DNA from: Nitrospirales bacterium
GTDB lineage: Bacteria > Nitrospirota > Nitrospiria > Nitrospirales > UBA8639
Direction: 5' to 3'
Assembly (NCBI GenBank): GCA_021604105.1
Contig: BQIW01000008.1
Location: forward strand, 1 to 64,000
DNA length: 64,000 nt
Shown: positions 14,937 through 59,220 of the stretch, piece after piece
Layout of the letters: each line of letters begins with the position of its first letter
Position numbering within the stretch: position 1 is the stretch's first letter
Position numbers and translations under genes: made by a program
Notes under the pieces: generated by a model
Database searches by the model: none
What the model was told of the DNA's origin: nothing
Seen by the model: the letters and a program-made list of their open reading frames with translations, nothing else

Positions 14937-17063
14937 ATGGCCAAAAAACAACCCACTAAATCTTCCCCTGCTTCCACCGGTAAAACCGCGAAATATGCTG
15001 ACCCAACTGTCGAGATCGGCACTGGAGGGGAAGTGCACCAGACAAGTGGAAAAACCAATCCGGTATTAACCACTCAGCAAGGCATTCCTGTCGCGGATGA
15101 CCAAAACTCGCTTAAAGTCGGAACGCGGGGTCCAAGCGCATTGGAAGACTTTCACTTTCGGGAAAAGATTTTTCACTTTGACCATGAACGGATTCCGGAA
15201 CGGGTCGTGCATGCCCGCGGGTTTGGGGCTCATGGGTATTTTGAAAATTACGAATCTCTGGCAGATGTCACAAGAGCCGACCTCTTTCAACGACCACGTG
15301 ATAAAACTCCTGCGTTTGTCCGGTTTTCAACCGTAGCCGGTAATAAGGGCTCCTTCGACTTGGCAAGAGACGTCCGGGGATTCGCCGTGAAGCTGTATAC
15401 CAAAGAGGGGAATTGGGATCTTGTGGGCAACAATATGCCCGTGTTTTTCATACAAGACGCTATGAAATTTCCAGACCTCGTTCACGCGGCCAAAGCGGAA
15501 CCGGATCGTGGCTTCCCCCAGGCGCAAACTGCGCATGATAACTTTTGGGACTTTATCTCTCTGACCCCCGAAAGCATGCACATGGTCATGTGGATCATGT
15601 CCGACAGAGCTATCCCCCGTTCCTTTCGTTTCATGGAAGGGTTTGGCGTGCACACATTCCGCCTGATCAATGGCCAGGGGAAATCGACGTTTGTAAAATT
15701 TCACTGGAAACCGAAACTGGGTATGCAATCGGTGGTCTGGAATGAAGCCGTGAAAATCAATGGTGCGGATCCGGATTTCCATCGCCGGGATTTATGGAGT
15801 GCCATTCAGCAGGGTGATTATCCGGAATGGGAACTGGGCCTCCAGCTTTTTGATGATGAATTTGCTCAACAATTCGATTTTGATGTGCTCGATGCCACCA
15901 AACTCATTCCAGAAGAAATTTTACCAATTCGCCGCGTAGGCCGGCTCGTTCTTGATCGCTGTGTGAACAATTTCTTTGCTGAGACCGAACAGGTCGCCTT
16001 TTGTACGCAAAATATTGTACCGGGCATTGATTTTTCAAATGATCCGCTATTACAAGGACGGAACTTTTCCTACCTCGATACTCAGCTCAAACGGCTTGGC
16101 AGTCCGAATTTCACTCACATACCCATCAATGCCCCCAAGTGTCCGTTCAGCCATTTTCAACAGGATGGCCATATGGCCATGCAGAATCCGCAAGGCCGTG
16201 CCAATTATGAACCCAATTCCTGGCCAGGCGAAACTGCCGGTCCCCGTGAATCACCGGAAAAAGGATTCACGTCTTATCCTGCAGAGGACGAAGGCCCGAA
16301 AGTCCGCCTTCGCTCTGAAACCTTTGCCGATCATTACAGCCAGGCCCGACAATTTTATATCAGTCAGACCGAGGTCGAACAAACACACATCGCAAACGCC
16401 TTAGTTTTTGAATTAAGCAAAGTGGAACATCTTGAGATACGGACTCGTATGGTTTCTCATTTACTGAATATCCACCAGGATCTGGCCAAAACGGTCGCCA
16501 AAGGATTGCGCATCCAGCAGATGCCAGCGCCCGCAGATGCGGCTAAACCGACCCAGGAGGATCTCCAAAGATCCCCGGCACTCAGCATTCTTCTTAATAG
16601 TCCCAAGACCTTCAAAGGGCGAAAGCTTGGCGTGCTCATCACCGATGGAGTCGATATGAAATTATTTAAATCGCTCAAAGCCGCCGTCAAGTCGGAAGGG
16701 GCGATTATGGAGATTGTGGCCCCCGGCGTAGGCGGAGTAGAAGCCAGCGACGGGACATGGATTGAAGCCGCCCAGAAAATCGATGGCGGCCCCTCGGTTT
16801 TGTATGACGCAGTAGCTCTCCTCCTTTCCGAGGAAGGAGGCCGGGCTTTAGCCAAAGAGCCGACGGCGAGGGATTTTGTGGCAGATGCCTTTGCGCATAT
16901 GAAATTTATCGGATATGTCGAAGCCGCGACTCCCCTCTTCGCAAAGGCAGGGCTGACAGATATGGACGGAGGAATGATCGCTCTTGACGGAAATAAAGGC
17001 ACCTCCAAATTCCTGGAAATGTGCCGGCATCTCCGATTCTGGGACCGCACCGCGGCTTCATGA
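14937..17063 (+). CDS. katE: Large-subunit monofunctional heme catalase (HPII/KatE type)
   Basis: A 708-aa catalase that disproportionates hydrogen peroxide. The catalytic His is in [11 protein letters not shown] near 92. The distal Asn lies in [18 protein letters not shown] near 165. The heme-ligating Tyr is in NFSYLDTQ near 380. After the core, a C-terminal flavodoxin/DJ-1-like domain (about 560-705, [13 protein letters not shown]) marks the large-subunit clade that includes E. coli HPII (about 750 aa). The N-terminal extension is Lys/Thr/Ser-rich, as in that clade. The start follows TTAAGGAGCG. It is divergent from the 2-Cys peroxiredoxin gene. Confidence 0.95.
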
Positions 17064-17236: not shown

Positions 17237-18985
17237 ATGAGATATTTAGCGCTGGCTACCGATTATGACGGCACTCTTGCCCTTCATGGGCGCGTCAACG
17301 AATCGACCCTTCTAGGACTGGAAAAAGTCTTAACCACCAATCGAAAGCTCCTTCTGGTCACGGGCCGGGAACTAAATGATCTCCTGAATGTATTCCCTTA
17401 TCCTCATGTATTTGAGTGGATTGTCGCGGAGAATGGACTGTTATTGTATAAACCTTCCACCAAGGAAACCATCACCCTGGCGGATATGCCGTCTAAAGAT
17501 TTCATTATGCGGCTTCGTTCACGAGGTATCCCCATTTCTGTCGGACGAAATATCGTCTCTACCGTCCGGCCACATGAAACGGCCGTATTGGAAGTAGTCC
17601 GTGATCTCGGATTGGATATCCAACTGATTTTTAACAAAGAAGCGGTCATGATGCTTCCAGCGGGATTCAGTAAAGCCACAGGACTGGGGAAAGCGTTACG
17701 CAGAATGGGCCTGTCCCCACACAATGTCGCGGGGATTGGCGATGCCGAGAATGATCTGCCATTTCTGGGAATGGTGGAGTGCTCCGCCGCAGTCGGCAAT
17801 GCTCTTCCGGCAATTAAGAAACGCGCCGATATCGTGACGGAAGGAGAGCACGGGGACGGAGTCATGGAATTGATCCGGCATCTTTTGACTGACGACTTGC
17901 AATCAATTGACTCGTCCCTTCACCGGCATTATGTGGTGCTGGGAACCACAGAGACGGACCAGGAAGTCCGGATCAGTCCGTATGGTCCGAACCTTCTCCT
18001 GGCCGGCTCATCGGGAAGCGGAAAATCCACGCTATCAACCGGCATTATTGAGCGTCTCACGGATAAACAGTATCAATGCTGCATCATCGATCCTGAAGGC
18101 GATTATGAATCGTTAGAACAGGCCGTGGTCCTGGGTGACATGAATCACACCCCCAACACAAAAGAGATCATTAATATTCTGGAAAATCCGGATACGAATC
18201 TGGTCATCAATCTGGTTGGCCTGCCGATTCAGGAACGTCCTTCTTTTTTTAAAACCGTCTTGAAGGATCTTCAGGACTTTAGAGCACAAACGGGTCGCCC
18301 TCATTGGATTGTACTCGATGAGACTCATCATCTAATGCCGGCAGAATGGGATGTCCCTTTCCCCTTGTTCAATCCATCACCACAATCTCTACTGATGATC
18401 ACCGTACATCCCGATCAAATGGCTACCGACGCCCTTGCAGCTACTGATTGTGTCGTGGTGATTGGAAAATCTCCAGGGGAGCGATTGGAGGCATTCACCA
18501 ATTCTGTTGGAGAATCTCTGCCTTTATTCCAGTATCATCATGTCCAACAGGGGGAGGCGATATTCTGGAAGCGGCACGGAGGGGCTCTGCCGATTCGATT
18601 CCGCATACATCCCAATAGGAGCGAACGGAGGCGTCATCGTCGGAAGTATGCGGAAGGAGAATTAGGACCTGATCGCAGTTTTTACTTTCAAGGTCCGGAA
18701 GGCAAGCTGAACCTTCGAGCCCAAAATCTTATGTTTTTTCTTCAACTGGCAGAAGGGCTGGATCCTGAAACGTGGATGTATCATGTCAAGCGGCATGATT
18801 ATTCTTCCTGGGTTCGGGATTGCATTAAAGATACAACGCTGGCCGGCGAAATTCGGGAAATAGAATCCACTGAATCACTAGGACCTACGCAAAGTCTTAC
18901 TCACATCAAAGCCGCCATTGAATCCCGGTATGTCCTCTCTCCTCACCCTCCTTCCTCTTCGTCGCCTTCCTCTCCATCCACTTAG
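17237..18985 (+). CDS. Fusion of HAD-superfamily phosphatase with a HerA-like P-loop ATPase domain
   Basis: 582 aa in two parts. Residues 1-220 are a Cof/sucrose-phosphatase-like HAD hydrolase: nucleophile Asp 9 and Asp 11 in DYDGTL, VTGR near 41 (motif II), Lys near 146, and GIGDAENDLPFL near 167 (motifs III/IV). Residues 235-460 are an ATPase: Walker A GSSGSGKST at 257-265, a DPEGDYE strand near 285 and Walker B WIVLDE at 357-362, with the look of HerA/VirB4-type NTPases. A C-terminal part (about 460-580) is rich in Arg/His and ends in Ser/Pro repeats. The HAD part would dephosphorylate a sugar or other small phosphate. Why it is joined to an ATPase is unknown. The ATG is preceded only by an A-rich stretch. 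Confidence 0.82.
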   Translation: MRYLALATDYDGTLALHGRVNESTLLGLEKVLTTNRKLLLVTGRELNDLLNVFPYPHVFEWIVAENGLLLYKPSTKETITLADMPSKDFIMRLRSRGIPISVGRNIVSTVRPHETAVLEVVRDLGLDIQLIFNKEAVMMLPAGFSKATGLGKALRRMGLSPHNVAGIGDAENDLPFLGMVECSAAVGNALPAIKKRADIVTEGEHGDGVMELIRHLLTDDLQSIDSSLHRHYVVLGTTETDQEVRISPYGPNLLLAGSSGSGKSTLSTGIIERLTDKQYQCCIIDPEGDYESLEQAVVLGDMNHTPNTKEIINILENPDTNLVINLVGLPIQERPSFFKTVLKDLQDFRAQTGRPHWIVLDETHHLMPAEWDVPFPLFNPSPQSLLMITVHPDQMATDALAATDCVVVIGKSPGERLEAFTNSVGESLPLFQYHHVQQGEAIFWKRHGGALPIRFRIHPNRSERRRHRRKYAEGELGPDRSFYFQGPEGKLNLRAQNLMFFLQLAEGLDPETWMYHVKRHDYSSWVRDCIKDTTLAGEIREIESTESLGPTQSLTHIKAAIESRYVLSPHPPSSSSPSSPST

Positions 18986-32256: not shown

Positions 32257-34881
32257 CTACGCATTCAGCGCGGCCCGGGAAATGGATTGACGCAGTTGAA
32301 AGAATTCCTCCCAGGGATCACGTTTGAGGGCCTCCAGCCGATCCGGAAGCGTCTTGAGCGTATAGGCCTGCGGCCCGGATAGGGAGGGTAATTCCTTCCA
32401 GCTGATCGGAGTCGAAACAGGCGCTCCGGACAAGGCTCGGACGCCAAAGGTCGCAACGGACGTTGAGCCAAATCCGTTTCTGAGGTAATCGATAAAAATT
32501 TTTCCCTTCCGCGTGGCCTTACTCATATTGGCCACAAAGGCGGAAGGCTGTCGCTCTGCCGTTTCTGTCGCCAGCTTGCGGGTATACTGTTTCAGCTCAT
32601 CCCAGCCGGCCCGGCGGACAAGAGGCGCCACCACGTGCAAACCCTTCCCCCCGGACGTTTTGACAAAACTGACGATTCCATCCTCATCCAGTCTCCGGCG
32701 CAAGAGTTCCGCCCCCTCGATCACCTGTTCCCACTTGACCCCTGGTCCGGGATCCAGATCGAACACCAACCGGTCAGGCCGGTCCACTCGATCCTCCAGG
32801 CATCCCCAGGGATGCATCTCCAGCACGCCCATCTGCACAAGCGCAATCAGTCCCCGGACATCTTCGATCACTAAATAGGAATTTTCCTCTTTACTGCCCT
32901 TTTCTTCTATGAGAATTTTTTTGATGCTTTCCGACAAAGAGCCGGAGGCATGCTTTTGATAAAAACATTTTTTCTGATGTCCTTGCGGGCAGCGCACCAG
33001 CGTGAGCGGCCGTCCCGCCACATGCGGCAACACCCAAGCCGCGATGCGCTGGTAGAAATCTGCCAGATCCCCTTTGGTAATGCCCTGTTGGGGATAAAGA
33101 ATCTTATCCGGATGCGTGAGTACCATTTCCACCCGCGGAGGGGAATGATCCCGCCTGGAATTTTTCCGACCGCGTGAGGATGTGGAAGGTTCGGGAACGA
33201 TCTCGTTCAAGGGTGTCGGAATTTCTTTTCTGATGTCTTTGACTGATTTGTCCTCGCGAAGACCGAGAAAAGAGGGATGGCGCAGAACGCCTTCCCGTGT
33301 CCATTCCAAAAATTCAACTTCCACTACCAAATCCGGGCGTACCCAATGCGCAGTTTTGAGCCCGCGGTCGTTGGGCAACCGGACAAAGGGGGAACTCCCT
33401 TGATGACGTTTGGACAAGAGGGCATGAATGCGTGCAAGGCGTTGTTGCGTAAACCCCGTTCCCACCCGTCCGGCGTACTGTAATTGCCCTTCCTGATCGT
33501 AATATCCCAGCAGCAGGGCTCCAAAAAATTTTCTGGAGCCCGAAGGATTGGTATACCCCCCAATTACCAATTCCTGCCGGTGATGACATTTGACCTTGAC
33601 CCACTGCTTCGAGCGGGTTTGACGATACGGGCTCATCCCATGCTTGGAAATAATCCCCTCGAGAGCCTTTCGACAGGCATGCTCGAACGACCGCTCCCCC
33701 TGACCCTGGATATGGTCGCTGTATCGCAGATGGAACGCGGCCTCCTCGGGCAGGCACTTAATCAATTCCCATAGCAGTTTCTTGCGGTTGAGAAGGGGCG
33801 TTCCGCAGAGGTTATACCCTTCGCAATAGGGAAGATCAAACACGAAATACACAAGAGGATCGGAAGCTTCCCCTTTCAGTACGGTTTGCAAAGCCTGGAA
33901 ATCGGAAATGCCGTCAGGGCGAAGGACCACCAATTCCCCATCTAGAATCGCCTTCCGCACCGGCAATTGGGCCAAGGCGTCCGCGATACCAGGGAATTTC
34001 TTGGTCCAGTCCTTTCCATTTCGGGTATACAGGTGAATCCGGGCGTCTTTCACCACACTGACAAGACGATATCCATCAAATTTTATTTCATGAAACCAAT
34101 CGTCTCCCGTCGGGATTGACTTGACCAGTGTTGCCAATTGAGGACGAAAGGTGGACGGTTGGGATACGGCCACAGCGGAGGGAAGCTTGGATGGGTTAAA
34201 GATGCGGGATGGGCCGGTGGTATTCTTGCGTGAGACGGTGCGGGAGGAACGGCTATTGGCGGTTTTGTTGCCTGACTTCCTTAGGGAGAGTTGTTTTTTT
34301 CTGCTGTTTCCCTCGGTCCCCCCGGCGATGTCCTCCAATGTTCGCTTGGTGGCTACGCTCCGGGGAGCCGTGTCAATGATATCGGGCTGTGTCCCTTGGA
34401 GAGCTTCCCTATCCTTTTCTTTGATCAATAACCAGTTTGGTTCATCCTTGGCTTTGGCTTTTCCCATCCGAACCAGGCTCCATCCTCCCTTCAGCTTTTT
34501 TCCTTGTAATTGAAATTTCAATCGTCCCCGGTCATACGCGTGTCGCGGATTTTCCTGTGGCACCCATTGGCCACGATCCCACACCATCACCGTTCCTCCT
34601 CCGTACTCCTCCTTGGGGATGGTTCCTTCGAAGGATCCATATTCGAGGGGGTGATCCTCAACATGAACGGCCAGACGCTTGAGGGAGGGATTTAAACTGG
34701 GACCTTTCGGAACCGCCCAACTTTTCAACACACCGCCCAGTTCAAGCCTGAAATCGTAATGCAAGCGGCTTGCCGCATGCTTATGGACCACAAACGAAGA
34801 CCTGTGTTTCCGGGATGTCGTCCCACGAGGTTCCGGGGTTTGTTGAAACTGCCGTTTACTCTGATATTCTTGTAATCCCAT
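32257..34881 (-). CDS. ligD: NHEJ DNA ligase D (phosphoesterase-ligase-polymerase)
   Basis: About 874 aa in the Pseudomonas-type order. An N-terminal 3'-phosphoesterase domain (about 20-170) has VVHKHAASRLHYDFRLE and LKSWAVPKGPS. The ATP-dependent ligase domain (about 250-560) has the adenylated Lys in EIKFDGYR. The C-terminal archaeo-eukaryotic-primase polymerase domain (about 590-860) has VFDLDPGPG and TSGGKGLHVV. It trims, fills and seals double-strand breaks with Ku. The ATG at 34881 is the first good start; a TTG at 34956 would add 25 residues. Ku lies directly upstream on the same strand, 102 bases away, so the two form an NHEJ unit. Confidence 0.95.
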   Translation of the reverse strand: MGLQEYQSKRQFQQTPEPRGTTSRKHRSSFVVHKHAASRLHYDFRLELGGVLKSWAVPKGPSLNPSLKRLAVHVEDHPLEYGSFEGTIPKEEYGGGTVMVWDRGQWVPQENPRHAYDRGRLKFQLQGKKLKGGWSLVRMGKAKAKDEPNWLLIKEKDREALQGTQPDIIDTAPRSVATKRTLEDIAGGTEGNSRKKQLSLRKSGNKTANSRSSRTVSRKNTTGPSRIFNPSKLPSAVAVSQPSTFRPQLATLVKSIPTGDDWFHEIKFDGYRLVSVVKDARIHLYTRNGKDWTKKFPGIADALAQLPVRKAILDGELVVLRPDGISDFQALQTVLKGEASDPLVYFVFDLPYCEGYNLCGTPLLNRKKLLWELIKCLPEEAAFHLRYSDHIQGQGERSFEHACRKALEGIISKHGMSPYRQTRSKQWVKVKCHHRQELVIGGYTNPSGSRKFFGALLLGYYDQEGQLQYAGRVGTGFTQQRLARIHALLSKRHQGSSPFVRLPNDRGLKTAHWVRPDLVVEVEFLEWTREGVLRHPSFLGLREDKSVKDIRKEIPTPLNEIVPEPSTSSRGRKNSRRDHSPPRVEMVLTHPDKILYPQQGITKGDLADFYQRIAAWVLPHVAGRPLTLVRCPQGHQKKCFYQKHASGSLSESIKKILIEEKGSKEENSYLVIEDVRGLIALVQMGVLEMHPWGCLEDRVDRPDRLVFDLDPGPGVKWEQVIEGAELLRRRLDEDGIVSFVKTSGGKGLHVVAPLVRRAGWDELKQYTRKLATETAERQPSAFVANMSKATRKGKIFIDYLRNGFGSTSVATFGVRALSGAPVSTPISWKELPSLSGPQAYTLKTLPDRLEALKRDPWEEFFQLRQSISRAALNA

Positions 34882-34983
34882 GGATGTACCCTGAGGGTAG
34901 CCTTTTTGCGCCTCAGTTTTGAATAGACTGAGCAAGAGACCACTCTGCTCGGCCAAGCCGGCATTTTCCCGGTAAAGATTATC

Positions 34984-35844
34984 TTAACTGGCCTTACGGG
35001 ATTTTCGAGGGGAGGCGGATTTGCGTTTTTTTGCTCGGCCGGAGGGTTGAGTCTTTTGAACGCTTTTCTTCAATAAGGCCATAATATCGATAACTTTTCC
35101 TGACCCAGTTTGCTTTTCTTTGGCGACCGTGGGGACGGATGTCCGTGATTGGGCACGTTTCGATTTTTTGTCGATCCATTTCAATAAGGCATCACGGTAG
35201 TCATCATGATAGCGTTGGGGTTCCCACCTGGTACTCATGGATTCCACCAACCTTTGTGCCAGAGTCAACTCCTTTTCAGAAATTTTATAGGATTTCACAC
35301 TCGCCCCCGGCACATCCAATTCTTGCACGTTGCGAATTTCTTGATGAAACCGCAGAAGCTCCAGCACCAGCACATGCCCTTGAGGAATGAGCGCGGCTAA
35401 ATACTGGCGTGTTCGAATAACGACTTTGGCAATTCCGATTTTGCCGCTCCGACGAAGCACTTCCCGTAACAGCACATAGACTTTTTCACCCTTGTTATCA
35501 GGAACTAGATAATAGGGCTTATCAAAGTACTCATAGCCGATATCTTTTGCATTGACAAAATTTTCGATTTCAACTGATTTATTCACTTCAACGGCAACTT
35601 TCTCAAAATCTGCATCATGTAACAGCACATACCGACCCTCTTCATATTCAAACCCTTTAACAATGTCCTGCCATGGAACTTCTTCACCCGTCTCCTCGTT
35701 CACGCGTTCATACCGGACTCGTGCATGGTTTCGGCTATCCAACAACCGGAAATGCAAGTCAAATTGCTTTTCCGCGGAATGAACGACAACAGGAATGGTG
35801 ACTAGACCAAAGGTAATATGCCCTCTCCAAATTGGTCTGGTCAT
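34984..35844 (-). CDS. ku: Ku, NHEJ end-binding protein
   Basis: 286 aa with the bacterial Ku core: TRPIWRGHITFGLVTIPV at the N-terminus, HDADFEKVAVEVNKSVEIENF near 95-115, YYLVPDNKGEKVYVLLREVL near 130-150, and LELLRFHQEIR near 185. The C-terminal 60 residues are Lys/Arg/Ser-rich, as in bacterial Ku tails that bind DNA and recruit LigD. It forms a ring-shaped homodimer on broken DNA ends. It is the first gene of the minus-strand ku-ligD unit. Confidence 0.95.
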   Translation of the reverse strand: MTRPIWRGHITFGLVTIPVVVHSAEKQFDLHFRLLDSRNHARVRYERVNEETGEEVPWQDIVKGFEYEEGRYVLLHDADFEKVAVEVNKSVEIENFVNAKDIGYEYFDKPYYLVPDNKGEKVYVLLREVLRRSGKIGIAKVVIRTRQYLAALIPQGHVLVLELLRFHQEIRNVQELDVPGASVKSYKISEKELTLAQRLVESMSTRWEPQRYHDDYRDALLKWIDKKSKRAQSRTSVPTVAKEKQTGSGKVIDIMALLKKSVQKTQPSGRAKKRKSASPRKSRKAS

Positions 35845-45899: not shown

Positions 45900-46418
45900 A
45901 TGATGTTTGGAAAATTTAAGGGAGTCATCTTGGCCTTGTTAGCCGGAACTGTTGCCACGGGGATCGGGGCACTGTATTCCATCGGCAGTGCCGATCTGCC
46001 TGTTCAAGACAGACAACCTTTACGTTTTAGCCATCGACTGCATGCGGGAATATTGAACATACATTGTCAATTTTGTCATCGGTATGCCACGCACTCTCCA
46101 GTGGCGGGTGTGCCATCCGTGGCTCTGTGCCAGACGTGTCATGAGTCTCTTTCTGAAGCAACACCGGATATGAACATGTTACAGATTTATTGGAACGACA
46201 AACGACCGATTCCGTGGATCAGGCTTCAGCGTCTTCCGGATCATGTGTACTTCACGCATGAAATGCATCTGTTCGCGGGCCTGTCATGTGTCTCATGCCA
46301 TGGAAAGGTTGACCGCATGTCGGGCACCCCCAGAGCACCCACCTATGAAATGGGCTGGTGTTTGACCTGCCATGAACAACAGGGAGCCTCTCGGGATTGT
46401 TGGACCTGTCACAAGTAA
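45900..46418 (+). CDS. actA: ActA-like pentaheme cytochrome c of an alternative-complex-III-type operon
   Basis: 172 aa with an N-terminal anchor helix (about 7-27) and exactly five CxxCH heme motifs at residues 56-60, 77-81, 130-134, 154-158 and 167-171, plus extra His (HRLH near 45-48, HEMH near 120-123) that can be distal ligands. Heme number, size and first position in the operon match ActA of alternative complex III. It would be exported and carry electrons at the periplasmic face. The next gene starts 12 bases after its stop. Start codon: two adjacent ATGs at 45900/45903; the ribosome site is weak (ACGGGAATG). Confidence 0.88.
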   Translation: MMFGKFKGVILALLAGTVATGIGALYSIGSADLPVQDRQPLRFSHRLHAGILNIHCQFCHRYATHSPVAGVPSVALCQTCHESLSEATPDMNMLQIYWNDKRPIPWIRLQRLPDHVYFTHEMHLFAGLSCVSCHGKVDRMSGTPRAPTYEMGWCLTCHEQQGASRDCWTCHK

Positions 46419-46430
46419 AAGGACACACCA

Positions 46431-48626
46431 ATGGACCTATATCGACGGACCCTCTTTAAGATTCTTGGACTGACAGCAGCCGGTTCATCCCTGCCGGGCT
46501 GTGAGCGAGAAGTGCATAACCTTGTACCCTATCTGTTACCGGACGGGGATATCGTTCCCGGAGTGGCAAATTGGTATGCCACCACCTGCCAGGAATGCGA
46601 AGCCGGTTGCGGAACCATGGTTCGTGTCATGGAAGGACGCGCGAAAAAAATTGAAGGCAATCCCACGCATCCGGTCAACGAAGGGAAACTCTGTGCCCGT
46701 GGACAAGCCGCTCTTCAGGGGCTGTATAATCCCGACCGCCTTCAAGGCCCTCTAAGGCGTGAAGGCAAAAGAGGTCAAGGTCCATTCCGGCCGGTTACCT
46801 GGGAAGAAGGCCTATCAGAATGGGTGGAGCAAATACGCATACATGCCGGAAAGTCCGCCATGGTGACCCGTCCGGTGACCGGTACGTTAGCCAGCCTGTT
46901 GACAACGATGATGGATTCCCTATCCGGTCGTCTCGTGATGTACGAATCCACGGGGGAACAGACGCTCAGAACAGCCAACCATCTCAGCTTTGGAACCCAG
47001 GCCCTTCCCCATTATGACCTGGCGAATGCAGATTACCTTCTGTCATTCGGTACGCCATTCCTTGAACACTGGCTCTCACCGGTATCGTTTGGTGTGGCGT
47101 ATGGAAAATTCCGTCAGGGACGCCCCATGGTTCGAGGCCGCTTCATTCAGGTGGAGCCACGCCTGTCTCTCACCGCTTCAAATGCGGATCGATGGATTCC
47201 ACTCAGACCGGGCACCGAAGGCTTACTCGCAATGGGCATTGGACAGGTCTTATTACGGGATGGACTGACAAATCTTTCTTCTTCTCACCAGGCATCCTTT
47301 CACCGAACTTTTTCTGCTATCTCATTGCAAGCGATTTCGGCCGACACGGAAGTCCCGCAAGAGGTGATCACTCAAATGGCCCATGAACTGTCATCGGCAA
47401 ATGCTCCGCTTATTATGGGCGGGGGACCGGCCGCTGCCCAGACCAATGGCACCACAACGCTTATCCTCATTAATGCACTAAACGTAATGATCGGCGCTAT
47501 TGGACGGCGCGGGGGACTGCAGTGGATGGAACCTCAAGACCCGCCGGTGGATCTTGCCAACGCCGGGTTGGCCGGCGAACGCACGCTCATGGATTTGGCG
47601 ATGGAATTTGAACAAGGATCCCGCACATTGCTTCATTTGTATCGCGCCGATCCTCTCTTCACACTTCCACCGTCACTGAAGTTTGAGGGGGTGTTTGACC
47701 ATGCGCAGTTCATCGTCAGTTTCAGTCCCTTTCTTGATGACTCGACTTCGATGGCTGATCTGATTCTGCCGGATCATGACCCGCTGGAATCGTGGGGGGA
47801 TCATGTTCGACAGGATACGATCCCCGTGCCGGCCTGGAGTGTATCCCAACCTGTGGTGCGTCCACTCTATGACACTAAACCCATCGGTGATGTGTGGCTG
47901 GATGCCGCTCACCGATTGGGCGGATCTCTGGGTGAACGGGTCCCCTGGCATACCTTTCACGATCTGCTGAAAAGCCGGTGGCAGGCTGTCTTGACCAAGC
48001 ATGATTCACCACGCTCGTTTGAAACCCGCTGGAAAGAGACGCTGCAGGAAGGCGGCTTGTGGCCCTCTACCATTCCCCATCATCAGATTTCCCCGGCCAT
48101 TCCCTCCATCACCTATAAACCGCCGCAATTCCTGGGGAACTCCTCCGACTACCCTCTGTATTGTTATCCCTATCCCTCCCTGGGGTTGCATGATGGGCGA
48201 GGTGCCAATCGTCCCTGGCTTCAAGAATTGCCGGATCCTCTGACCACCGGTATATGGGGGAGTTGGATTGAACTTAATCCAACCACCGCACAGTCGTTAG
48301 GAATACATCCTGGCGACCGAGTCCGAGTCACGTCGGATTATGGATCGATCGAAGCATCCGTCATGATGTTTCCAGGCCTACATCCCGACATGATTGCCAT
48401 TCCCATGGGACAGGGACATCGTGCTTACGGACGATATGCCAAGGGGCGCGGCGTGAATCCCGTGGTACTACTTGGCCCAAACTATGATGAGCAATCAGGT
48501 TCTTTGGCCACTGGGGGGACGCGGGTCCGTGTTGAGCGTATCAAAGGGGGATCGCAATTGCCGATGTTGGAGCAATCCGGGAAAAACCCTGTCTTCGGGA
48601 ATTTACAGGAAACGGGAGGTTTGTAA
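46431..48626 (+). CDS. actB: ActB1-like molybdopterin-oxidoreductase-fold protein (separate from the Fe-S part)
   Basis: 731 aa. The N-terminus has twin Arg (RRTLFKILGL, residues 5-6) and a lipobox-like SLPGC at Cys 24, so Tat export and lipid anchoring are likely. Cys 53, 56, 60 and 88 form the C-x2-C-x3-C-x27-C pattern of a [4Fe-4S] cluster in this superfamily. The catalytic-fold region follows, with LLSFGTPFLEHWLSPVSFG near 205 and the C-terminal beta-barrel domain near 620-720 (LGIHPGDRVRVTSDYGSIEA). Motifs are those of ActB rather than a formate or nitrate enzyme; loss of the Mo site is inferred by family. In many complexes ActB is fused to the Fe-S protein, but here they are separate. 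Confidence 0.85.
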   Translation: MDLYRRTLFKILGLTAAGSSLPGCEREVHNLVPYLLPDGDIVPGVANWYATTCQECEAGCGTMVRVMEGRAKKIEGNPTHPVNEGKLCARGQAALQGLYNPDRLQGPLRREGKRGQGPFRPVTWEEGLSEWVEQIRIHAGKSAMVTRPVTGTLASLLTTMMDSLSGRLVMYESTGEQTLRTANHLSFGTQALPHYDLANADYLLSFGTPFLEHWLSPVSFGVAYGKFRQGRPMVRGRFIQVEPRLSLTASNADRWIPLRPGTEGLLAMGIGQVLLRDGLTNLSSSHQASFHRTFSAISLQAISADTEVPQEVITQMAHELSSANAPLIMGGGPAAAQTNGTTTLILINALNVMIGAIGRRGGLQWMEPQDPPVDLANAGLAGERTLMDLAMEFEQGSRTLLHLYRADPLFTLPPSLKFEGVFDHAQFIVSFSPFLDDSTSMADLILPDHDPLESWGDHVRQDTIPVPAWSVSQPVVRPLYDTKPIGDVWLDAAHRLGGSLGERVPWHTFHDLLKSRWQAVLTKHDSPRSFETRWKETLQEGGLWPSTIPHHQISPAIPSITYKPPQFLGNSSDYPLYCYPYPSLGLHDGRGANRPWLQELPDPLTTGIWGSWIELNPTTAQSLGIHPGDRVRVTSDYGSIEASVMMFPGLHPDMIAIPMGQGHRAYGRYAKGRGVNPVVLLGPNYDEQSGSLATGGTRVRVERIKGGSQLPMLEQSGKNPVFGNLQETGGL

Positions 48627-49363
48627 TGAGTCAAGATCTTCAAGCAACGAAAGAGTATTCAACAAAGGCGGCATCATCCTATAAATGGGAAATGGTCGTC
48701 GATCTGGACCGGTGTTCCGGTTGTGAAGCCTGTGTCGTCGCGTGCCATGCCGAAAACAATATTCGCATTTCCGGGGAGAAGGAAGCGTCCGAAGGGCGGG
48801 CGATCAATTGGATTCGCATTGAGCGGTATTGGGAAGGAGACTATCCCGACGTGAAAGTCAAATTCCTTCCGGTGATGTGCCAACATTGTGACGATGCCCC
48901 CTGTGAACCAGTCTGTCCCGTTTATGCATCGTATCACACCCCTGAAGGGTTGAATGCCCAAGTCTATAATCGTTGTATCGGCGTTCGTTACTGCGGAAAT
49001 AACTGTCCCTATGTCGCCCGTCAATTTAATTGGTTTGATCCCCATTGGGATGAGCCCTTGGCGGATCAGTTAAATCCGGATGTGTCGGTCCGATCCGGCG
49101 GTGTGATGGAAAAATGCACCTTTTGCGTGCAACGAATTCGAAGTGGAAAGGAAGTGGCTCACAAAGAAGGACGCCGGGTCAGGGATGGAGAAATCACACC
49201 CGCCTGTGTGCAATCCTGTCCAACAGCCGCCCTGATTTTTGGGGACCGGAATGATCCCGACAGCCGGGTATCTCATTTAACGAAGAGCCGGAGGGGATTT
49301 CATCTGATGGAATCTCTGGGTACGCACCCGGCCGTCACGTATTTGCGGAGGCTGTCGGAATGA
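48626..49363 (+). CDS. actB: ActB2-like four-cluster Fe-S protein
   Basis: 245 aa with four Cys groups as in DmsB/NrfC/ActB2: C30-x2-C-x2-C-x3-C40 (DRCSGCEACVVAC), C85-x2-C-x4-C-x3-C97 (CQHCDDAPCEPVC), the CIGVRYCGNNCPY group at 117-127, and C164, C167, C194 and C198 (CTFC...CVQSC). The third group has only three Cys visible, fitting the [3Fe-4S] centre of ACIII. It conducts electrons between cytochrome and membrane parts. The start overlaps the previous stop (TAATG), a tight coupling. Confidence 0.9.
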   Translation: MSQDLQATKEYSTKAASSYKWEMVVDLDRCSGCEACVVACHAENNIRISGEKEASEGRAINWIRIERYWEGDYPDVKVKFLPVMCQHCDDAPCEPVCPVYASYHTPEGLNAQVYNRCIGVRYCGNNCPYVARQFNWFDPHWDEPLADQLNPDVSVRSGGVMEKCTFCVQRIRSGKEVAHKEGRRVRDGEITPACVQSCPTAALIFGDRNDPDSRVSHLTKSRRGFHLMESLGTHPAVTYLRRLSE

Positions 49364-50688
49364 CCGACCGGCCAACGGTTTGGGAGGAAATGCCCAAGAT
49401 CAATCGGGACCTTCTCGCGCCCCTCCAGACGACCACCTGGACCTATTTTCTCTGGGTAGGAGTGTTGTCCTGCTTGGTCGCAGCAGGCGCCGGAGCATGG
49501 ACTTTCCAAATTCAAACCGGGATCGGACAAACCGATCTGCATCACCCCATTTTCTGGGGATCCTATATTGCCTCCTTCGTCTTTTGGATCGGCGTCAGCC
49601 ATTCCGGAACGTTTATTTCCGGTGTCTTGCGATTAACGAATGCGGAATGGCGTCGACCCGTCACACGACTGGCTGAGCTCATGACCGTCGTGGCTCTTCT
49701 TGTCACCGCGTTATTCGTCTTTTATCACCTTGGTCGGGTCTGGCGGTTTTATTACCTGATTCCATACCCCAATCAACGGGAACTCTGGCCGAACTTTCGA
49801 TCTCCGCTCATGTGGGATGCAACAGCCATTTTTACGTATGCAACCGCAAGCACCATTTATATATATCTACCCTTAATTCCCGATTTTGCGCTCGCCCGGG
49901 ATCGAATTCACGGATGGAGAAAAACCGTGTATCGCTGGTTGGCAATCGGATGGCATGGATCTCAGGCCCAATGGCGCACATTGGAAATGGCCATACGCAT
50001 TATCACGCCCTTGATCGTGATGGTCATGATTTCGGTGCATTCCATTGTCGGATTTGATTTCGGCATGGCTCTCGTGCCGGCATGGCATTCGACTATTTTC
50101 GCACCCTATTTTGTGGTCGGCGCGGTGCATTCAGGTCTCGGTATGGTGATGATTGGTCTCTACGTTCTGCGGAAGGTATATCACTTGCACAATTATGTTC
50201 GAACCGAACATTTTGAGAAACTCGGGAAGTTGTTGCTCGTCACGACCCTGCTCCTGGCCTATATGTATTTTGCGGAACAGTTAACTGTCTGGTATGGCAA
50301 GGTGCCCGACCATATTGCCGTGCAGCATTCTCTCCTCTACGGAGCGTATGCCGTGCCGTTCTGGTTTATGGTGAGTTGTATTTATGTCATTCCCCTGCTG
50401 ACGCTGGTATGGCCTCGTTTTCGACAATGGCCGGTAGGACTCATGATAGTAGGCCTGATCATCAATATCGGCATGTATATCGAGCGCATGCTGATCATTG
50501 TCCCTCCCCTTGCCCATCCAAGGCTGTCATTTCAGTGGGATGAATATTTCCCTTCGCTGATTGAGTTCGTCATTCTAGTCGGAACGTTGGCCCTGGCTCT
50601 CTTGTTGTACTCCCTTGCCGTGAAATTCGTACCGGTCATTTCAATTTGGGAAGAAAAACTGGGGAAAAAACATGCCCCAAAACGCTGA
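49360..50688 (+). CDS. actC: ActC-like NrfD-family membrane subunit
   Basis: 442 aa with about ten membrane helices, NrfD/PsrC type, the putative quinone-binding subunit. Recognisable parts are the SHSGTFISGVLRL segment near 85-97, YHLGRVWRFYYLIPYPN near 122, and HSIVGFDFGMALVPAWHSTI near 227-246 with conserved His. ACIII has two such subunits, ActC and ActF; only this one is present here. The start ATG overlaps the preceding stop (ATGA), and its 3' end overlaps the next gene by 17 bases. Confidence 0.92.
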   Translation: MTDRPTVWEEMPKINRDLLAPLQTTTWTYFLWVGVLSCLVAAGAGAWTFQIQTGIGQTDLHHPIFWGSYIASFVFWIGVSHSGTFISGVLRLTNAEWRRPVTRLAELMTVVALLVTALFVFYHLGRVWRFYYLIPYPNQRELWPNFRSPLMWDATAIFTYATASTIYIYLPLIPDFALARDRIHGWRKTVYRWLAIGWHGSQAQWRTLEMAIRIITPLIVMVMISVHSIVGFDFGMALVPAWHSTIFAPYFVVGAVHSGLGMVMIGLYVLRKVYHLHNYVRTEHFEKLGKLLLVTTLLLAYMYFAEQLTVWYGKVPDHIAVQHSLLYGAYAVPFWFMVSCIYVIPLLTLVWPRFRQWPVGLMIVGLIINIGMYIERMLIIVPPLAHPRLSFQWDEYFPSLIEFVILVGTLALALLLYSLAVKFVPVISIWEEKLGKKHAPKR

Positions 50689-51220
50689 CACGGCGGAGAG
50701 ACACGTGGTGCTGGGATTCTTCGATCCAACGACTTCTCTCCCTCCTGTGCTTGATCAAATACGAAACCAGGGTATTCCCGATATTTTTATGGAAATTCTC
50801 TCCCCTCTTCCACTGGAAACCGCGTTGCTTAATAAACCGGTTCGCATTCCCCTTTATCGCCTGACCATTATCGGAGGGATCGTCGGAATTGGAGTCGGAA
50901 TATTTTTTGCCGCAGGAACCGCACTCTTGTTTCCCTTAGTGACCGGAGGGAAACCTATTGTGAGTATTCCGGTGGTGGGGATTATTTCCTATGAAACCAT
51001 GATGCTGATGGCGATTGCCGTGACCTTTGTAGCGACAGCGATCAACATTGCCTTCGTGCAACAGTCGGGCCTTCGCAATGACCCGCGCATTGATGAGGGA
51101 TCGGTAGGTTTGTCGATTCAGGTTGGGAACGACACGGCCAAGGCCCACTCCATTTCCCGTCTGCTTCAACAAGCCGGAGCTTCTGAAGTGGAAATACGGA
51201 CCATAGCCAGTGACTCATGA
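50672..51220 (+). CDS. actD: ActD-like DUF3341 subunit
   Basis: 182 aa with a soluble N-terminal alpha/beta domain (VVLGFFDPTTSLPPVLDQIR) and two membrane helices near 70-92 and 105-130 (IGGIVGIGVGIFFAAGTALL, IISYETMMLMAIAV). This is the DUF3341 protein found in all ACIII operons as ActD, a cytoplasmic-side accessory subunit. It starts 17 bases inside actC. The next gene begins 12 bases after its stop. Confidence 0.9.
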   Translation: MPQNADTAERHVVLGFFDPTTSLPPVLDQIRNQGIPDIFMEILSPLPLETALLNKPVRIPLYRLTIIGGIVGIGVGIFFAAGTALLFPLVTGGKPIVSIPVVGIISYETMMLMAIAVTFVATAINIAFVQQSGLRNDPRIDEGSVGLSIQVGNDTAKAHSISRLLQQAGASEVEIRTIASDS

Positions 51221-51232
51221 GGGTCGAGGAAG

Positions 51233-51748
51233 ATGCTGAACCATTTTGCGTTGAACCGCTCCTACCGTTCCATGGGTTGGATCATAGTGGCAGGACTGTT
51301 TCTGTGGGGATGTTCGAACGAGATGGAAGAACAACCTTCGTATTCGTATCAAGAAGCTCCCCGCGTGCATTCGCCGCCGGAAAGCACGCCGCATATGACG
51401 CCATTTTCCTTTGCGACATCTCCGCTGGAACACACTAAAAATCCAATCGATGGCGCATGGCTCTTTGCTATTAATTGCACGCATTGTCATGGACGGGAGG
51501 GAATGGGGGACGGACCGGTGGCCGGGTATTTGCCGGACCTGCCTCCCAATCTTCACGCTTCGGCGGTACAACAAAAACCGGATAAAGTGCTGTATACCAT
51601 TATAACCCATGGCGAAAACGTCATGCCCGCGTTTGAACCATTTCTCTCTCAGGAAGAAAGATGGGCCTTGGTGAAATTTCTTCGGACCTTTCCCGATCAG
51701 GCGCCATCCTCCATTCCCTTGACGCAGAAACCGAATCCGCCAGGTTAA
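51233..51748 (+). CDS. actE: ActE-like monoheme cytochrome c lipoprotein
   Basis: 171 aa. The N-terminal helix ends in a lipobox (LFLWGC, Cys 27). One heme motif is CTHCH at 82-86, and the axial Met is in VMPAF at about 131. The pattern is that of a class I cytochrome c anchored at the outer face of the membrane. In ACIII the ActE subunit transfers electrons to a terminal oxidase or soluble carrier. It starts 12 bases after actD. Confidence 0.88.
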   Translation: MLNHFALNRSYRSMGWIIVAGLFLWGCSNEMEEQPSYSYQEAPRVHSPPESTPHMTPFSFATSPLEHTKNPIDGAWLFAINCTHCHGREGMGDGPVAGYLPDLPPNLHASAVQQKPDKVLYTIITHGENVMPAFEPFLSQEERWALVKFLRTFPDQAPSSIPLTQKPNPPG

Positions 51749-51776
51749 TTGACGCATCTCTGGAAATGTGGTGAGC

Positions 51777-52952
51777 ATGATGACGAGTTCCAGTTTTTGG
51801 ATCGGCTTTTTCAGTTTGGCCCATATCACCCTGGCGAGCCTTGGGGTGGGATTCATGGTTCTGGCTCCCATCGCGGAAGGACTGGGGCGCCGTCACCCCT
51901 ATTTTACGGATTTTGCGTATTTGGTCACACGATTTACATTGGTGACGTATACCACCAGCATCGTGTTGGCTGTCTTTATGCTGGAATTATTCATCGGGCT
52001 TTTCCCTCTCACGAATAGCTACCTCTTTAACCACTTTCGCTATCCTTTGCATCTGGCCTTGATCGTGTTTTTCATTCAAGTGTTGTGTCTGTATCCCTAT
52101 TATCACTTTTGGGATCGGCTTCGTTCGAAAAGTGTCACGTGGCATATGACGTTGGGAACGGTAGCCGCCGTATTCATTCTGATATGGGGAGGAATTCTTG
52201 ACGGGATCGGCTCATTCATGATGACTCCTGTGGAAGGCGATAATGGATGGGCAAGGCTTTGGAACCCCACATGGGTACCCCTGATGGTCCATCGTTTCTT
52301 TGGAAACCTGGTCATCGCCGGATACGTCATGGCGACGTATGCCGGATGGCGTCTTTGGAATCAATCAGGTCAAAAGAAGGATGAGGACTATTACCTCACG
52401 CTCCTGAAAACAGGCATCGCCATCGGCATTGTGAGCCTGATGATTCAGCCGGTTTCCGGTTTCGTATTCGCGCAACACATACAGAATGCACAACCGGATG
52501 TCCTGCAGGAACTCTATGAAGGCCCAACGGTCCTGTTAGTGATATGGCAATTCACCCTCTTGGCCCTGCTCCTGTTGGGCAGTCATCTCATTTTTCGCCC
52601 GGTGCATCTCGAACGGGGCCATTCGTATTGGGCAGAGGGATTTTATGTGCTGATGGTCGTGTTGATGGTCGTGCTGGCGCCATATCCGTTCTACCGTCGT
52701 CTCGTGAATGGTATCGTGCTTCTTCAGACGGGTTGGTATCTTTTGCATGTGTTTCCTGTGTGGATGCATGGCTCAACGCCCTCACTCAACAAGCCGTTCA
52801 TTCATGGTATCGCCATGACCCTAGGTCTGGCCGCGCTGGTACTCTATTTGACAATGGGAACCATCCGGGAAGTGGCGAGAGGGCCTGATACCATTCATGG
52901 AATGATCAACAGTCAGACGGAAGCCGCGTTTAGAGGTGAAACCTTCCCATGA
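51777..52952 (+). CDS. Cytochrome-bd-like oxidase subunit I homologue, copy 1 (lacks the paired Glu)
   Basis: 391 aa, nine or so helices, clearly shorter than canonical CydA because the quinol-binding Q-loop is missing. His 16 (SLAHITLA) matches CydA His 19. His 172 (MVHRFFGNL) matches CydA His 186. The segment corresponding to the CydA Glu 99/Glu 107 helix reads HLALIVFFIQV, so both glutamates are absent. The C-terminal MGTIREVARGP resembles a motif of this lineage. The GTG nine bases upstream is a weaker alternative start. It follows actE by 28 bases and overlaps the next gene (ATGA). Confidence 0.82.
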   Translation: MMTSSSFWIGFFSLAHITLASLGVGFMVLAPIAEGLGRRHPYFTDFAYLVTRFTLVTYTTSIVLAVFMLELFIGLFPLTNSYLFNHFRYPLHLALIVFFIQVLCLYPYYHFWDRLRSKSVTWHMTLGTVAAVFILIWGGILDGIGSFMMTPVEGDNGWARLWNPTWVPLMVHRFFGNLVIAGYVMATYAGWRLWNQSGQKKDEDYYLTLLKTGIAIGIVSLMIQPVSGFVFAQHIQNAQPDVLQELYEGPTVLLVIWQFTLLALLLLGSHLIFRPVHLERGHSYWAEGFYVLMVVLMVVLAPYPFYRRLVNGIVLLQTGWYLLHVFPVWMHGSTPSLNKPFIHGIAMTLGLAALVLYLTMGTIREVARGPDTIHGMINSQTEAAFRGETFP

Positions 52953-54313
52953 CTCTTGAACCCCTTGAAACTTCTATGTCCGTCGGGCGGGTGGCGATTG
53001 CCGCCTCTGCCCTGACGCATAGCCTCTTTGCCACGTTCATTGTGGGATCCTCCCTAATCGGTGCGGTGACAGCGACCTGGAGCTATATAACGGGAAAGGC
53101 CTGGCTACTCAGGTTGGCCAAGTTGATTGCGTTTGCCTTGGTGCTTTCCACTGCAACCGTGTCATTTTTTGGCGTCGTGCTCGTGGTTGCTCTGAACATC
53201 TATTGGCCTCAATTTTGGCATCGCCTGTTTCATGTGATGTTCTGGCCGTTTTTAGGAGAGGCGGCGTTATTTTTGGGGGAGGCGATATTTGCGTATGCCT
53301 GGTATTACCTTTGGGAATGGGGTCGGCATGGATGGAGACAAAAAGTGCATTTGGCATTTGTGTGGCTTGCCGCAGGCTGTGCCTTAAGTGCCATGCTTTT
53401 GATCGATATCACCGCTTCCTATATGTTGACGCCCCATCCGGTTTATGCCGCATGGGAAAACGTTTTCAATCCCACCATGATTCATCTTGATCTTCACCGG
53501 TGGTTTGGCAATCTGACCTGGGCGGGTTTTGCCCTGGCGGGCATCTGTGCCGTAGGTTATTTGAAATCGACAACCGAGACCGATCGAAATTTTTTCCAAA
53601 AAGCAGGAAGTTTCTGTTTTTTGATTGGTTACGGAGCCTTGCTGGTCATGCCGGTGGTGGGATATCAATATTTGCTTCATTTGCGTTATGGGCAACCCCA
53701 GGCGTTTTATACCGTGATGTTAGGAGAACGCTCGTGGCTTTTTGATGTCGTTGCGTTGTTGTACGGATTATTAATGCTGGTCGGTTCTTTATATGTTATT
53801 CAGATGGTTCGGTCGCTATCAAAACCACCTCCCTCTTTCACCGGATTTATTCCCCTTTCATTCACTGTCACCGTAATCGCTGCGATGATGTTGGCGATGC
53901 CCTATCAATTGCAGCATATCCCTCTTCTCAATGATTTAACCGATCAGGAAATTAATCCGTTAGGAAAGATGCAGCCGTATAAATATTTTGCGCTTTCGGG
54001 ACTTGTTATTTTTGGTGTAGGACATTGGATCTATTCCGTGCGTGTCTTTGGTCGAATGCCCCCTGCCACCGCCTCGAGTATCGACACCGGAACTCCACGA
54101 AGACGGATGGCGGGTTTGTTGATGACGTTGGCAGGTTTGACGGTGATCATTCTGTTAGCCATGGGATGGGTCCGCGAATCTGCCAGAGCGGTCAACGGGT
54201 ACCTTATTTATGATGTGATGCGGTTGGAGGACGAGAAATCGACGTATCAAGCCTCTCCCTCCGATAATGGTATCCTTTCGCAGGAGATTCCTTACGACCC
54301 CTTTGAACGATAA
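52949..54313 (+). CDS. Cytochrome-bd-like oxidase subunit I homologue, copy 2 (keeps Glu residues)
   Basis: 454 aa with about ten to eleven helices, no Q-loop. His 24 (ALTHSLFA) matches CydA His 19; His 183 (DLHRWFGNL) matches CydA His 186. Glu 104 and Glu 111 (FLGEAALFLGEAIF) lie where CydA has its functional glutamates, unlike copy 1. The C-terminal MGWVRESARAVNG matches the motif of copy 1. This copy is the better candidate for an oxygen-reducing heme site. The start overlaps the stop of copy 1 (ATGA), so the whole series from actA is one transcript. Confidence 0.82.
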   Translation: MTLEPLETSMSVGRVAIAASALTHSLFATFIVGSSLIGAVTATWSYITGKAWLLRLAKLIAFALVLSTATVSFFGVVLVVALNIYWPQFWHRLFHVMFWPFLGEAALFLGEAIFAYAWYYLWEWGRHGWRQKVHLAFVWLAAGCALSAMLLIDITASYMLTPHPVYAAWENVFNPTMIHLDLHRWFGNLTWAGFALAGICAVGYLKSTTETDRNFFQKAGSFCFLIGYGALLVMPVVGYQYLLHLRYGQPQAFYTVMLGERSWLFDVVALLYGLLMLVGSLYVIQMVRSLSKPPPSFTGFIPLSFTVTVIAAMMLAMPYQLQHIPLLNDLTDQEINPLGKMQPYKYFALSGLVIFGVGHWIYSVRVFGRMPPATASSIDTGTPRRRMAGLLMTLAGLTVIILLAMGWVRESARAVNGYLIYDVMRLEDEKSTYQASPSDNGILSQEIPYDPFER

Positions 54314-57344: not shown

Positions 57345-58811
57345 ATGCAGATGGAAAACTTTGTTCTACAAGGCCGCATACGGCTTCTGTTATGGATAAT
57401 GTTCGTGATGCTCACCCTGCCATCCGTTGGTTTGGGCAAAGTGGACCAAAATGTCATTACGGACAAGGATATTACCGTCGCAATTGAAAGCCGTTTCCTC
57501 GTCGATCCGACTGTCCCCTCAGATGGTATTGATGTCCATACGGATAATGGAGTCGTCATGTTGTCGGGAGAGGTCCCTACGCTGCTGGCCAGAGAGCGTG
57601 CAGGAAAAATCGTAGCCAGCATTCGAGGGGTTCAAGCCCTTATAAATATCATCGGGGTGAACCCTACCAGCCGGATTGGCGATAAAGAACTACGATCCAA
57701 GGTATTCGCGGCATTAGCCGCAGATCCGGCATCCGACTCGTATGAAATCACCGTACAAGTTGATCAGGGTCGAGTCATGCTGACTGGAACAGTAGAAAGT
57801 TGGCAGGAAAAGCAACTGACTGAGGAAGTGGTCAAATCAGTGAAAGGGGTTCAGTCTCTCAAGAGCCGGATCACCGTTAACCCGATGACTTCTCGTCCCG
57901 ACTCCGAAATCGAGGCGGAAATTTTCCGTCGCCTTCAATCCGACGTATGGGTCCATGAAAGCCTTATCGGCATCATGGTCGACCAGGGGCATGTCACATT
58001 AACCGGTACGGTGGGGAGTCTGGCTGAAAAGAATAGCGCGTATACAGATGCCTGGGTGGGCGGAGTCAAGGAGGTAAACGTGGCCCCACTCAAAGTTAAA
58101 TGGTGGGCACGGGACCGCATGCTTCGTCATCGCAAAGAAGCGTTGACATCAAACACCCATACAGCAGAGGCCATACGAACCGCCTTCCGATATGAGCCTC
58201 GCCTTCAGGAGGTTGAAATCGCCGTTCGTGTGGTCGACGGAACCGCTTTCCTTGTCGGGATTGTGAATAACCTGGCGGCTAAATACGCTGCGGAAAAGAT
58301 AACACGGAATACGGAAGGTATTTGGCGGGTACGCAGCTTCATTAAAGTTCGTCCTCCCGTGCGACTTGCTGATCGCGAACTGGAAAAACAAGTCCGTGAA
58401 GCCTTCAATCAGCATCCTCTCATTGACAGCTACGAAATTAAGGTTTCAGCCAATAGTGGAAACGTGTCTCTCGAGGGATACCTCAACTCTCCAACCGAAA
58501 TTTCCCAAACCGTTCGAACCGCGGCAAGAGTCAAGGGTGTCATCGATATCACGAATTACCTCCAAATCCAATCGCCGGGAAAATTGGATGAAGATATTTG
58601 GGAAGAGATCAGACGTGCGTTGTGGTGGGATCCTGATCTGTATGACCAGGATATTACGGTTACCGTATCCAATGGCATCGTCACCCTGAAGGGAACGGTT
58701 CCCTCCCTCGTGGAATGGAGACGAGCCAGAGACGTCGGGCGGAATTCCGGAGCCGAACGGGTTCGTAATCGTTTAACCGTGCGGTATGGTCCGGATTTTC
58801 ATTCAACCTGA
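57345..58811 (+). CDS. Exported protein with six BON domains, copy 1
   Basis: 488 aa. A signal peptide (about residues 10-32, IRLLLWIMFVMLTLPSVGLG) is followed by six BON domains of about 68 residues each. Each has a DxxI helix, a strand like VHTDNGVVMLSGEV, VQVDQGRVMLTGTV or VTVSNGIVTLKGTV, then a helix and a (V/G)xGVxxxxxx closing strand. Domain 2 has ESWQEKQ and domain 6 LWWDPDLYDQDITV. Multi-BON proteins likely bind membranes or outer-membrane components during osmotic stress. The gene at 59447 has the same architecture. The start has two nearby ATGs (57345, 57351). Confidence 0.85.
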   Translation: MQMENFVLQGRIRLLLWIMFVMLTLPSVGLGKVDQNVITDKDITVAIESRFLVDPTVPSDGIDVHTDNGVVMLSGEVPTLLARERAGKIVASIRGVQALINIIGVNPTSRIGDKELRSKVFAALAADPASDSYEITVQVDQGRVMLTGTVESWQEKQLTEEVVKSVKGVQSLKSRITVNPMTSRPDSEIEAEIFRRLQSDVWVHESLIGIMVDQGHVTLTGTVGSLAEKNSAYTDAWVGGVKEVNVAPLKVKWWARDRMLRHRKEALTSNTHTAEAIRTAFRYEPRLQEVEIAVRVVDGTAFLVGIVNNLAAKYAAEKITRNTEGIWRVRSFIKVRPPVRLADRELEKQVREAFNQHPLIDSYEIKVSANSGNVSLEGYLNSPTEISQTVRTAARVKGVIDITNYLQIQSPGKLDEDIWEEIRRALWWDPDLYDQDITVTVSNGIVTLKGTVPSLVEWRRARDVGRNSGAERVRNRLTVRYGPDFHST

Positions 58812-58866
58812 GATGAAATATTGTTTTCTAAACCCACTCCAAGAGTGTTGAGAAAGGAGAGTAGGT

Positions 58867-59220
58867 ATGCGACAGATCTTTTCACCACAATCAATCATCT
58901 ACCTCATCAGCATAATCCTCTGCATGTTCTCATTTTTGAATCTATCATTCGGGAAAACCTGGAATTTCGAACAGACTCCTATTCTACCCATTACATTAGT
59001 CAAGGATGTTCAGCCAAATCGCGATGCCTACATTAAAGATGTCCGCCAACAACTACAAAAATCCCGAGCGCTCCTTACTGATCTTAAAATGATGCAAACA
59101 CAGGCTTCCAGTCAAGAGAAGCAAGCGGATTTAAATGCCCCCATCATGAAACTCACGAAGGAACTGGAACATGCGGAACGTATCGCCAAAAATCTTGATG
59201 TCATTGATCCCCAACCCTGA
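58867..59220 (+). CDS. Small exported protein, unknown
   Basis: 117 aa. The N-terminal hydrophobic segment (IIYLISIILCMFSFLNLSFG, about 9-28) is a signal peptide. The mature part is a helix-rich region with a Lys/Gln/Glu coiled coil (DVRQQLQKSRALLTDLKMMQ) and ends NLDVIDPQP. No family recognised. The start follows AGAAAGGAGAG. It sits between the two six-BON genes on the same strand, so an accessory role to them is possible. Confidence 0.65.
   Translation: MRQIFSPQSIIYLISIILCMFSFLNLSFGKTWNFEQTPILPITLVKDVQPNRDAYIKDVRQQLQKSRALLTDLKMMQTQASSQEKQADLNAPIMKLTKELEHAERIAKNLDVIDPQP

Follow-up and report, generated by a model that had tools for sequence, protein, structure and literature searches.

What might a bacterium do with a protein that joins a HAD phosphatase to an ATPase resembling HerA? 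The question is posed by a gene in a 64,000-nucleotide stretch of a Nitrospirales genome (contig BQIW01000008.1, positions 1 to 64,000; hereafter the window). A preliminary description of this locus knew of no characterised protein with such a pairing, and in the literature that we could search we found neither a characterised protein combining HAD and HerA domains nor any direct study of a HAD with HerA, of DUF5752 or of OrfY, the last two being related to a third domain that is detailed below.

Table 1. Position of the fused gene, of its domains and motifs, and of the gene directly upstream, in window coordinates.
Feature	Coordinates	Strand	Remarks
Whole fused gene, 582 aa + stop	17237..18985	+	Single ORF, ATG start; kept in relatives
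HAD-IIB phosphatase domain, aa 1-218	17237..17890	+	Hydrolase_3, TIGR01484, Foldseek 1wr8
HAD motif I TDYDGTL, aa 8-14	17258..17278	+	D9, D11 invariant
HAD motif IV GDAEND, aa 168-173	17738..17755	+	G168, D169, N172, D173 invariant
HerA-like P-loop ATPase core, aa 229-456	17921..18604	+	DUF87 6.4e-9; Foldseek SIR2/HerA 8woc
Walker A GSSGSGKST, aa 257-265	18005..18031	+	G257, G262, K263 invariant
Walker B WIVLDE, aa 357-362	18305..18322	+	D361, E362 invariant
OrfY/DUF5752-like C-terminal domain, aa 458-567	18608..18937	+	PDB 4CSO 3.5e-11; PF19027
Large catalase gene, directly upstream	14937..17063	+	Catalase 6.1e-178; upstream in several genus relatives too

The fused gene, its relatives and its splits

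The HAD domain and the P-loop ATPase named in the preliminary description are indeed carried by a single frame of 582 codons, both with Pfam matches above the curated cut-offs, and all four motifs quoted there were located (Table 1). That account was nonetheless incomplete, as it overlooked a third conserved domain at aa ~458-567. D9, D11, T42, K146, G168, D169, N172 and D173 of the phosphatase show no variation across the 32 rows of the alignment (A2), and neither do G262, K263, D285, D361 and E362 of the ATPase. For the full-length protein, AlphaFold2 gives a model with a mean pLDDT of 87.6 and a disordered Ser/Pro tail (pLDDT <50) at aa 568-582.

The first concern with such a frame, already raised in the preliminary description, is that a sequencing or assembly error has merged two genes. 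Two relatives (G180 and G154) do encode the two parts in separate frames. Against this, 17237-18985 (+) contains no internal stop, the gene is uniform in GC content, and its three parts, compared with one congener, each give a dN/dS of 0.06-0.13, which indicates purifying selection across all of them. The same fusion, at 81-89% identity, is found in five further genomes of the genus, closed as well as draft, two of them one-contig genomes. At ~38-54% identity it occurs in other Nitrospirota, Planctomycetota, Desulfobacterota and one gammaproteobacterium, with plasmid records adding a cyanobacterium, rhizobia, Burkholderiales and an actinomycete under protein labels such as "HAD-IIB family hydrolase"; a second, deeper clade at ~30% identity, with identical domain order, comprises Nitrospira relatives and Planctomycetota. 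Full-length fusions are therefore on record in many genomes and plasmid records, several of these complete, from at least six phyla (Nitrospirota, Planctomycetota, Pseudomonadota, Desulfobacterota, Cyanobacteriota and Actinomycetota), and with such recurrence, even GC and selection over all parts, we regard a frameshift or assembly join as refuted and scarcely conceivable. The gene is better described as a member of a conserved and widespread HAD-ATPase-DUF5752 family. An origin in phage was also considered and set aside, as PHROGs gave generic matches only.

Within the genus the fused gene is accessory, being missing from many genomes, and its parts have had different fates. In G180, a closed, one-contig Nitrospira genome, the HAD (233 aa) is encoded next to the ATPase with its tail (345 aa), as two genes 25 bp apart. 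Another relative (L028:6001-7290) retains an intact HAD, with an intact catalase upstream, but has lost the ATPase by deletion and keeps a decayed tail that contains stops; this is gene decay caught in progress. Stand-alone HADs occur in two genomes that we term rhizobial from their gene content and tree position (G670 and G673), and on one Nostoc plasmid. The HAD-only state requires at least three changes on the HAD tree, where the rhizobial stand-alone HADs are sister to an Aminobacter fused protein (100/98) inside the alphaproteobacterial fused clade. The HAD, being retained where the ATPase was split off or lost, is accordingly the persisting part of the protein. In one planctomycete (L019:4407-4556) a short second copy of the C-terminal end of the tail domain, with 43% identity to aa 521-571, lies ~1.4 kb upstream of the fused gene.

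The phosphatase and ATPase domains

With respect to the N-terminal domain, membership of the HAD-IIB phosphatases is supported by matches to Hydrolase_3 (PF08282; 1.9e-22, 80.7 bits against a cut-off of 20.9) and TIGR01484 (61.5 bits against 41.8), and by the presence of all four HAD-IIB motifs (DxDx(T), T/S, K and GDxxND) at D9/D11, T42, K146 and G168-D169 with N172-D173. The cap is of the C2B type, the small-molecule class. In Foldseek, HAD-IIB structures rank highest (1wr8, TMt 0.84); trehalose-6-phosphatase, sucrose-phosphatase and mannosyl-3-phosphoglycerate phosphatase (MpgP) follow lower among the matches. The domain is thus like the PH1421/SPP/TPP/MpgP group (PDB 1wr8, 1s2o, 6upb, 3ztw) in fold, motifs I-IV and length, but it lies below the equivalog cut-offs, and the entries of that group are phosphatases alone, none of them showing a HerA-like ATPase or a DUF5752-like tail. 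A search for the second part of the fusion among known accessory domains of sugar phosphatases, an identity that the preliminary description had accepted would overturn its view, found no such domain. The best NCBIfam matches are archaeal phosphoglycolate phosphatases and Cof-type enzymes, with the phosphoglycolate phosphatase equivalog (TIGR01487; 86 versus 122.75 bits) and the Cof family (TIGR00099; 80.2 versus 137 bits) both short of their cut-offs. The OtsB-type family PF02358 (Trehalose_PPase) is not among the best 25 of the 27 Pfam matches of the fused protein, and has no match across the whole of genome G000.

The second domain resembles HerA, as the preliminary description had proposed. 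DUF87/HerA is matched at 6.4e-9 (36.7 bits against a Pfam cut-off of 23.2), and a model of the ATPase with its tail (pLDDT 86.3) finds its best Foldseek matches in SIR2/HerA complexes (8woc, 6.4e-12), SsoHerA and the minimal packaging ATPase B204. Walker A and B motifs in a RecA-like core are common to this protein and to the HerA/FtsK group (SIR2-HerA, SsoHerA 4d2i, STIV2 B204). Unlike the members of that group, the fused protein has a small core without several of their hallmarks. A sensor-1 Gln at the end of strand 4 is one criterion for HerA/FtsK (PMC10853773); the corresponding position, aligned to the Q in the STQRPS segment of E. coli HerA, is Val390 throughout the main clade (27 of 27 rows) and Tyr or Trp in the remaining five rows. 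In the alignment, no Arg is conserved at aa 363-386, just upstream of strand 4, where the arginine finger would be sought. The HAS barrel of HerA proper is missing, the N-terminus being occupied by the HAD with only ~10 residues before the P-loop domain. On these sequence features, the ATPase should not be counted as a standard HerA/FtsK pump despite its HerA-like fold and, with Walker A and B kept but the pump residues missing, it is probably not a pump of DNA or protein.

These losses bear directly on the proposal, made in the preliminary description, that the phosphatase could be coupled to an ATP-driven machine, with a leaning towards DNA-end repair or defence. A HerA-type motor would here travel on DNA while the HAD removed end phosphates or destroyed a nucleotide signal. 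The closest ATPase fold is HerA, the PADLOC mad8 profile matches all 33 ATPase rows, and Ku and LigD are encoded ~13-18 kb away in the window. However, the lack of all three hallmarks (sensor-1 Gln, arginine finger, HAS barrel) argues against a motor, the C2B-cap HAD is suited by class to small molecules, and the LigD encoded here already holds a 3'-phosphoesterase domain of its own. Moreover, PADLOC found no defence-system match among ten neighbouring window proteins, and no linked nuclease was recognised among the annotated neighbours; what surrounds the gene is oxidative-stress and carbohydrate genes. Neither the coupled machine nor the repair and defence link is therefore favoured, and a DNA-repair or defence motor is unlikely. 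The MADS defence system specifically was rejected, as the mad8 profile matches (5.6e-12) but none of the system's genes lie near, among the same ten proteins.

Loss of the pump residues with retention of Walker A and B might alternatively point to a bifunctional kinase/phosphatase, in which the P-loop domain would phosphorylate, and the HAD dephosphorylate, the same or linked small molecules. Weak profile matches to APS kinases (4e-4) speak in its favour, but these span only ~80 residues around the P-loop, and fold and sequence are both nearer to HerA than to any kinase; we judge this very unlikely.

The C-terminal domain and gene neighbourhoods

The third domain (aa 458-567) is as conserved as the rest of the protein, with RHxxKY and H-x4-D-x-S-x-W motifs. 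Its profile is homologous to OrfY, crystallised and deposited as a transcription factor (PDB 4CSO, 3.5e-11), and aligns with both OrfY repeats, whereas the fused protein has one such unit, joined to HAD and ATPase. We take the OrfY of 4CSO to be from Thermoproteus tenax. PF19027 (DUF5752) is matched by 22 of 32 members (best 2e-5), the window protein itself being below the Pfam cut-off (12.9 versus 23 bits), and no canonical DUF5752 protein is encoded elsewhere in the window's genome. In a Nitrospira relative (L109:4785-10499), an operon opens with a full DUF5752 protein (7.3e-66) and continues with TreS (4.9e-280), a TreT-type trehalose synthase, a 440-aa protein without Pfam or NCBIfam match and a mechanosensitive-channel-like (MscS) protein; a second Nitrospira relative has the same layout (L110:4724-10394, assigned by reading). 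The T. tenax trehalose operon likewise holds a glycosyltransferase and a mechanosensitive channel (PMC3634074). Relationship of the third domain to proteins of trehalose operons makes a stress-metabolism enzyme more likely than a DNA motor.

In the window, the gene is surrounded by genes for a large catalase, a peroxiredoxin, a hemerythrin, a short-chain dehydrogenase, Ku and LigD; at other loci its neighbours include hemerythrin, BON, Dps, PRC-barrel and universal-stress genes. Where a locus was unannotated, genes were called with a simple ORF picker. No sigma-70-like promoter was found in a scan, a pattern that says little in this organism. Most neighbourhoods contain general stress genes only. 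Sugar genes are linked in only ~3 lineages, as a raw count. The rhizobial stand-alone HADs head an operon of HAD, GT4, debranching enzyme and GT20/OtsA-like genes, the fused gene of Aminobacter is transcribed divergently from genes for the same three partners (GT4, debranching enzyme, TPS), and one Nitrospira group has TreZ- and debranching-type genes nearby (by cluster and by reading).

Several other features of the window were recorded. LigD (899 aa, 32257-35844, minus strand), with 3'-phosphoesterase, ligase and polymerase domains, stands beside Ku, so that the stress island of the fused gene also holds a bacterial NHEJ pair. By reading, 45900-54313 (+) holds an alternative complex III-like cluster (multihaem cytochrome, molybdopterin/Fe-S proteins, NrfD-like) followed by two cytochrome-bd-like membrane proteins, and 57345-60934 (+) holds two nearby exported proteins of about six BON-like repeats each, an apparent duplication.

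The prevalence of general stress genes, together with the NCBIfam matches given above, is what favours a phosphatase for some other small metabolite, such as phosphoglycolate, flavin, pyridoxal or a damaged sugar phosphate, with the ATPase as regulator or chaperone and the sugar links incidental to stress islands. The equivalog and Cof cut-offs are missed, however, and this explanation accounts neither for the GT4/GT20 operon nor for the OrfY/DUF5752 tail; we consider it rather improbable, if the most credible of the rivals.

A stress-associated sugar-phosphate phosphatase as a tentative reading

The explanation that we prefer, while holding it to be somewhat short of probable, is a sugar-phosphate phosphatase that is associated with stress and has its own ATP-responsive regulator built in. 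The N-terminal HAD-IIB domain would dephosphorylate a small sugar phosphate, the most plausible substrates being glycosyl phosphates, for example trehalose-6-phosphate or an allied intermediate on the way to a protective sugar; the HerA-like P-loop domain would serve as an ATP-dependent switch or scaffold that controls the phosphatase; and the OrfY/DUF5752-like tail would dock the enzyme on a partner in the sugar-stress pathway. We infer the sugar class of the substrate, while trehalose-6-phosphate itself as the substrate in the window's organism, the ATPase as switch and the tail as docking domain are speculative. Sugar-phosphatase activity is supported by the invariant HAD motifs and the trehalose-6-phosphate phosphatase, sucrose-phosphatase and MpgP structural neighbours, and further by the rhizobial GT4/GT20 operons, in genomes (G670 and G673) that each have one GT20 and no Trehalose_PPase (OtsB) match, the Aminobacter sister gene, the OrfY/DUF5752-like tail with the DUF5752-TreS-TreT operon, and retention of the HAD without the ATPase. 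A functional precedent may be found in Sulfolobus acidocaldarius, where a non-canonical HAD, Saci_0016, acts on trehalose-6-phosphate made by a GT4 enzyme (PMC7688234); the likeness drawn here is one of function, the TPS/TPP pathway is archaeal, and the excerpted text of that report mentions no ATPase fusion.

The distribution of trehalose genes speaks against the more specific form of this reading, as does the position of PF02358 outside the Pfam matches listed for the fused protein. GT20 and OtsB are both missing, and TreZ is present, in the window's genome and in three relatives with the fused gene, so no phosphorylated trehalose intermediate is evident in these four. TPS and OtsB are both present in 10 of the 23 genomes checked; the fused protein is therefore not simply the missing TPP, and a general stand-in for missing OtsB was rejected on this count and on the lack of both in the window's genus. 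Sucrose-phosphate synthase as the partner was also rejected, with only sub-threshold glycosyltransferase matches in six genomes of the genus.

As to how the fusion might have come about, a HerA-type core that lost its pumping residues may have been recruited as an ATP-sensing regulator, such that the ATP state of the cell would gate the last step of protective-sugar synthesis and the HerA fold would have a role that is neither DNA-related nor one of transport, a scenario that we consider unlikely, although not strongly so. What can be said of the family is that a three-domain architecture in at least six phyla has been hidden under labels such as that quoted above. Should the sugar-phosphatase reading hold, it would provide the first functional lead for DUF5752/OrfY, and a candidate for the missing trehalose-6-phosphate phosphatase of those rhizobia in which GT20 is present and OtsB has no match. 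It would also represent the use of a HerA-like ATPase for metabolic control.
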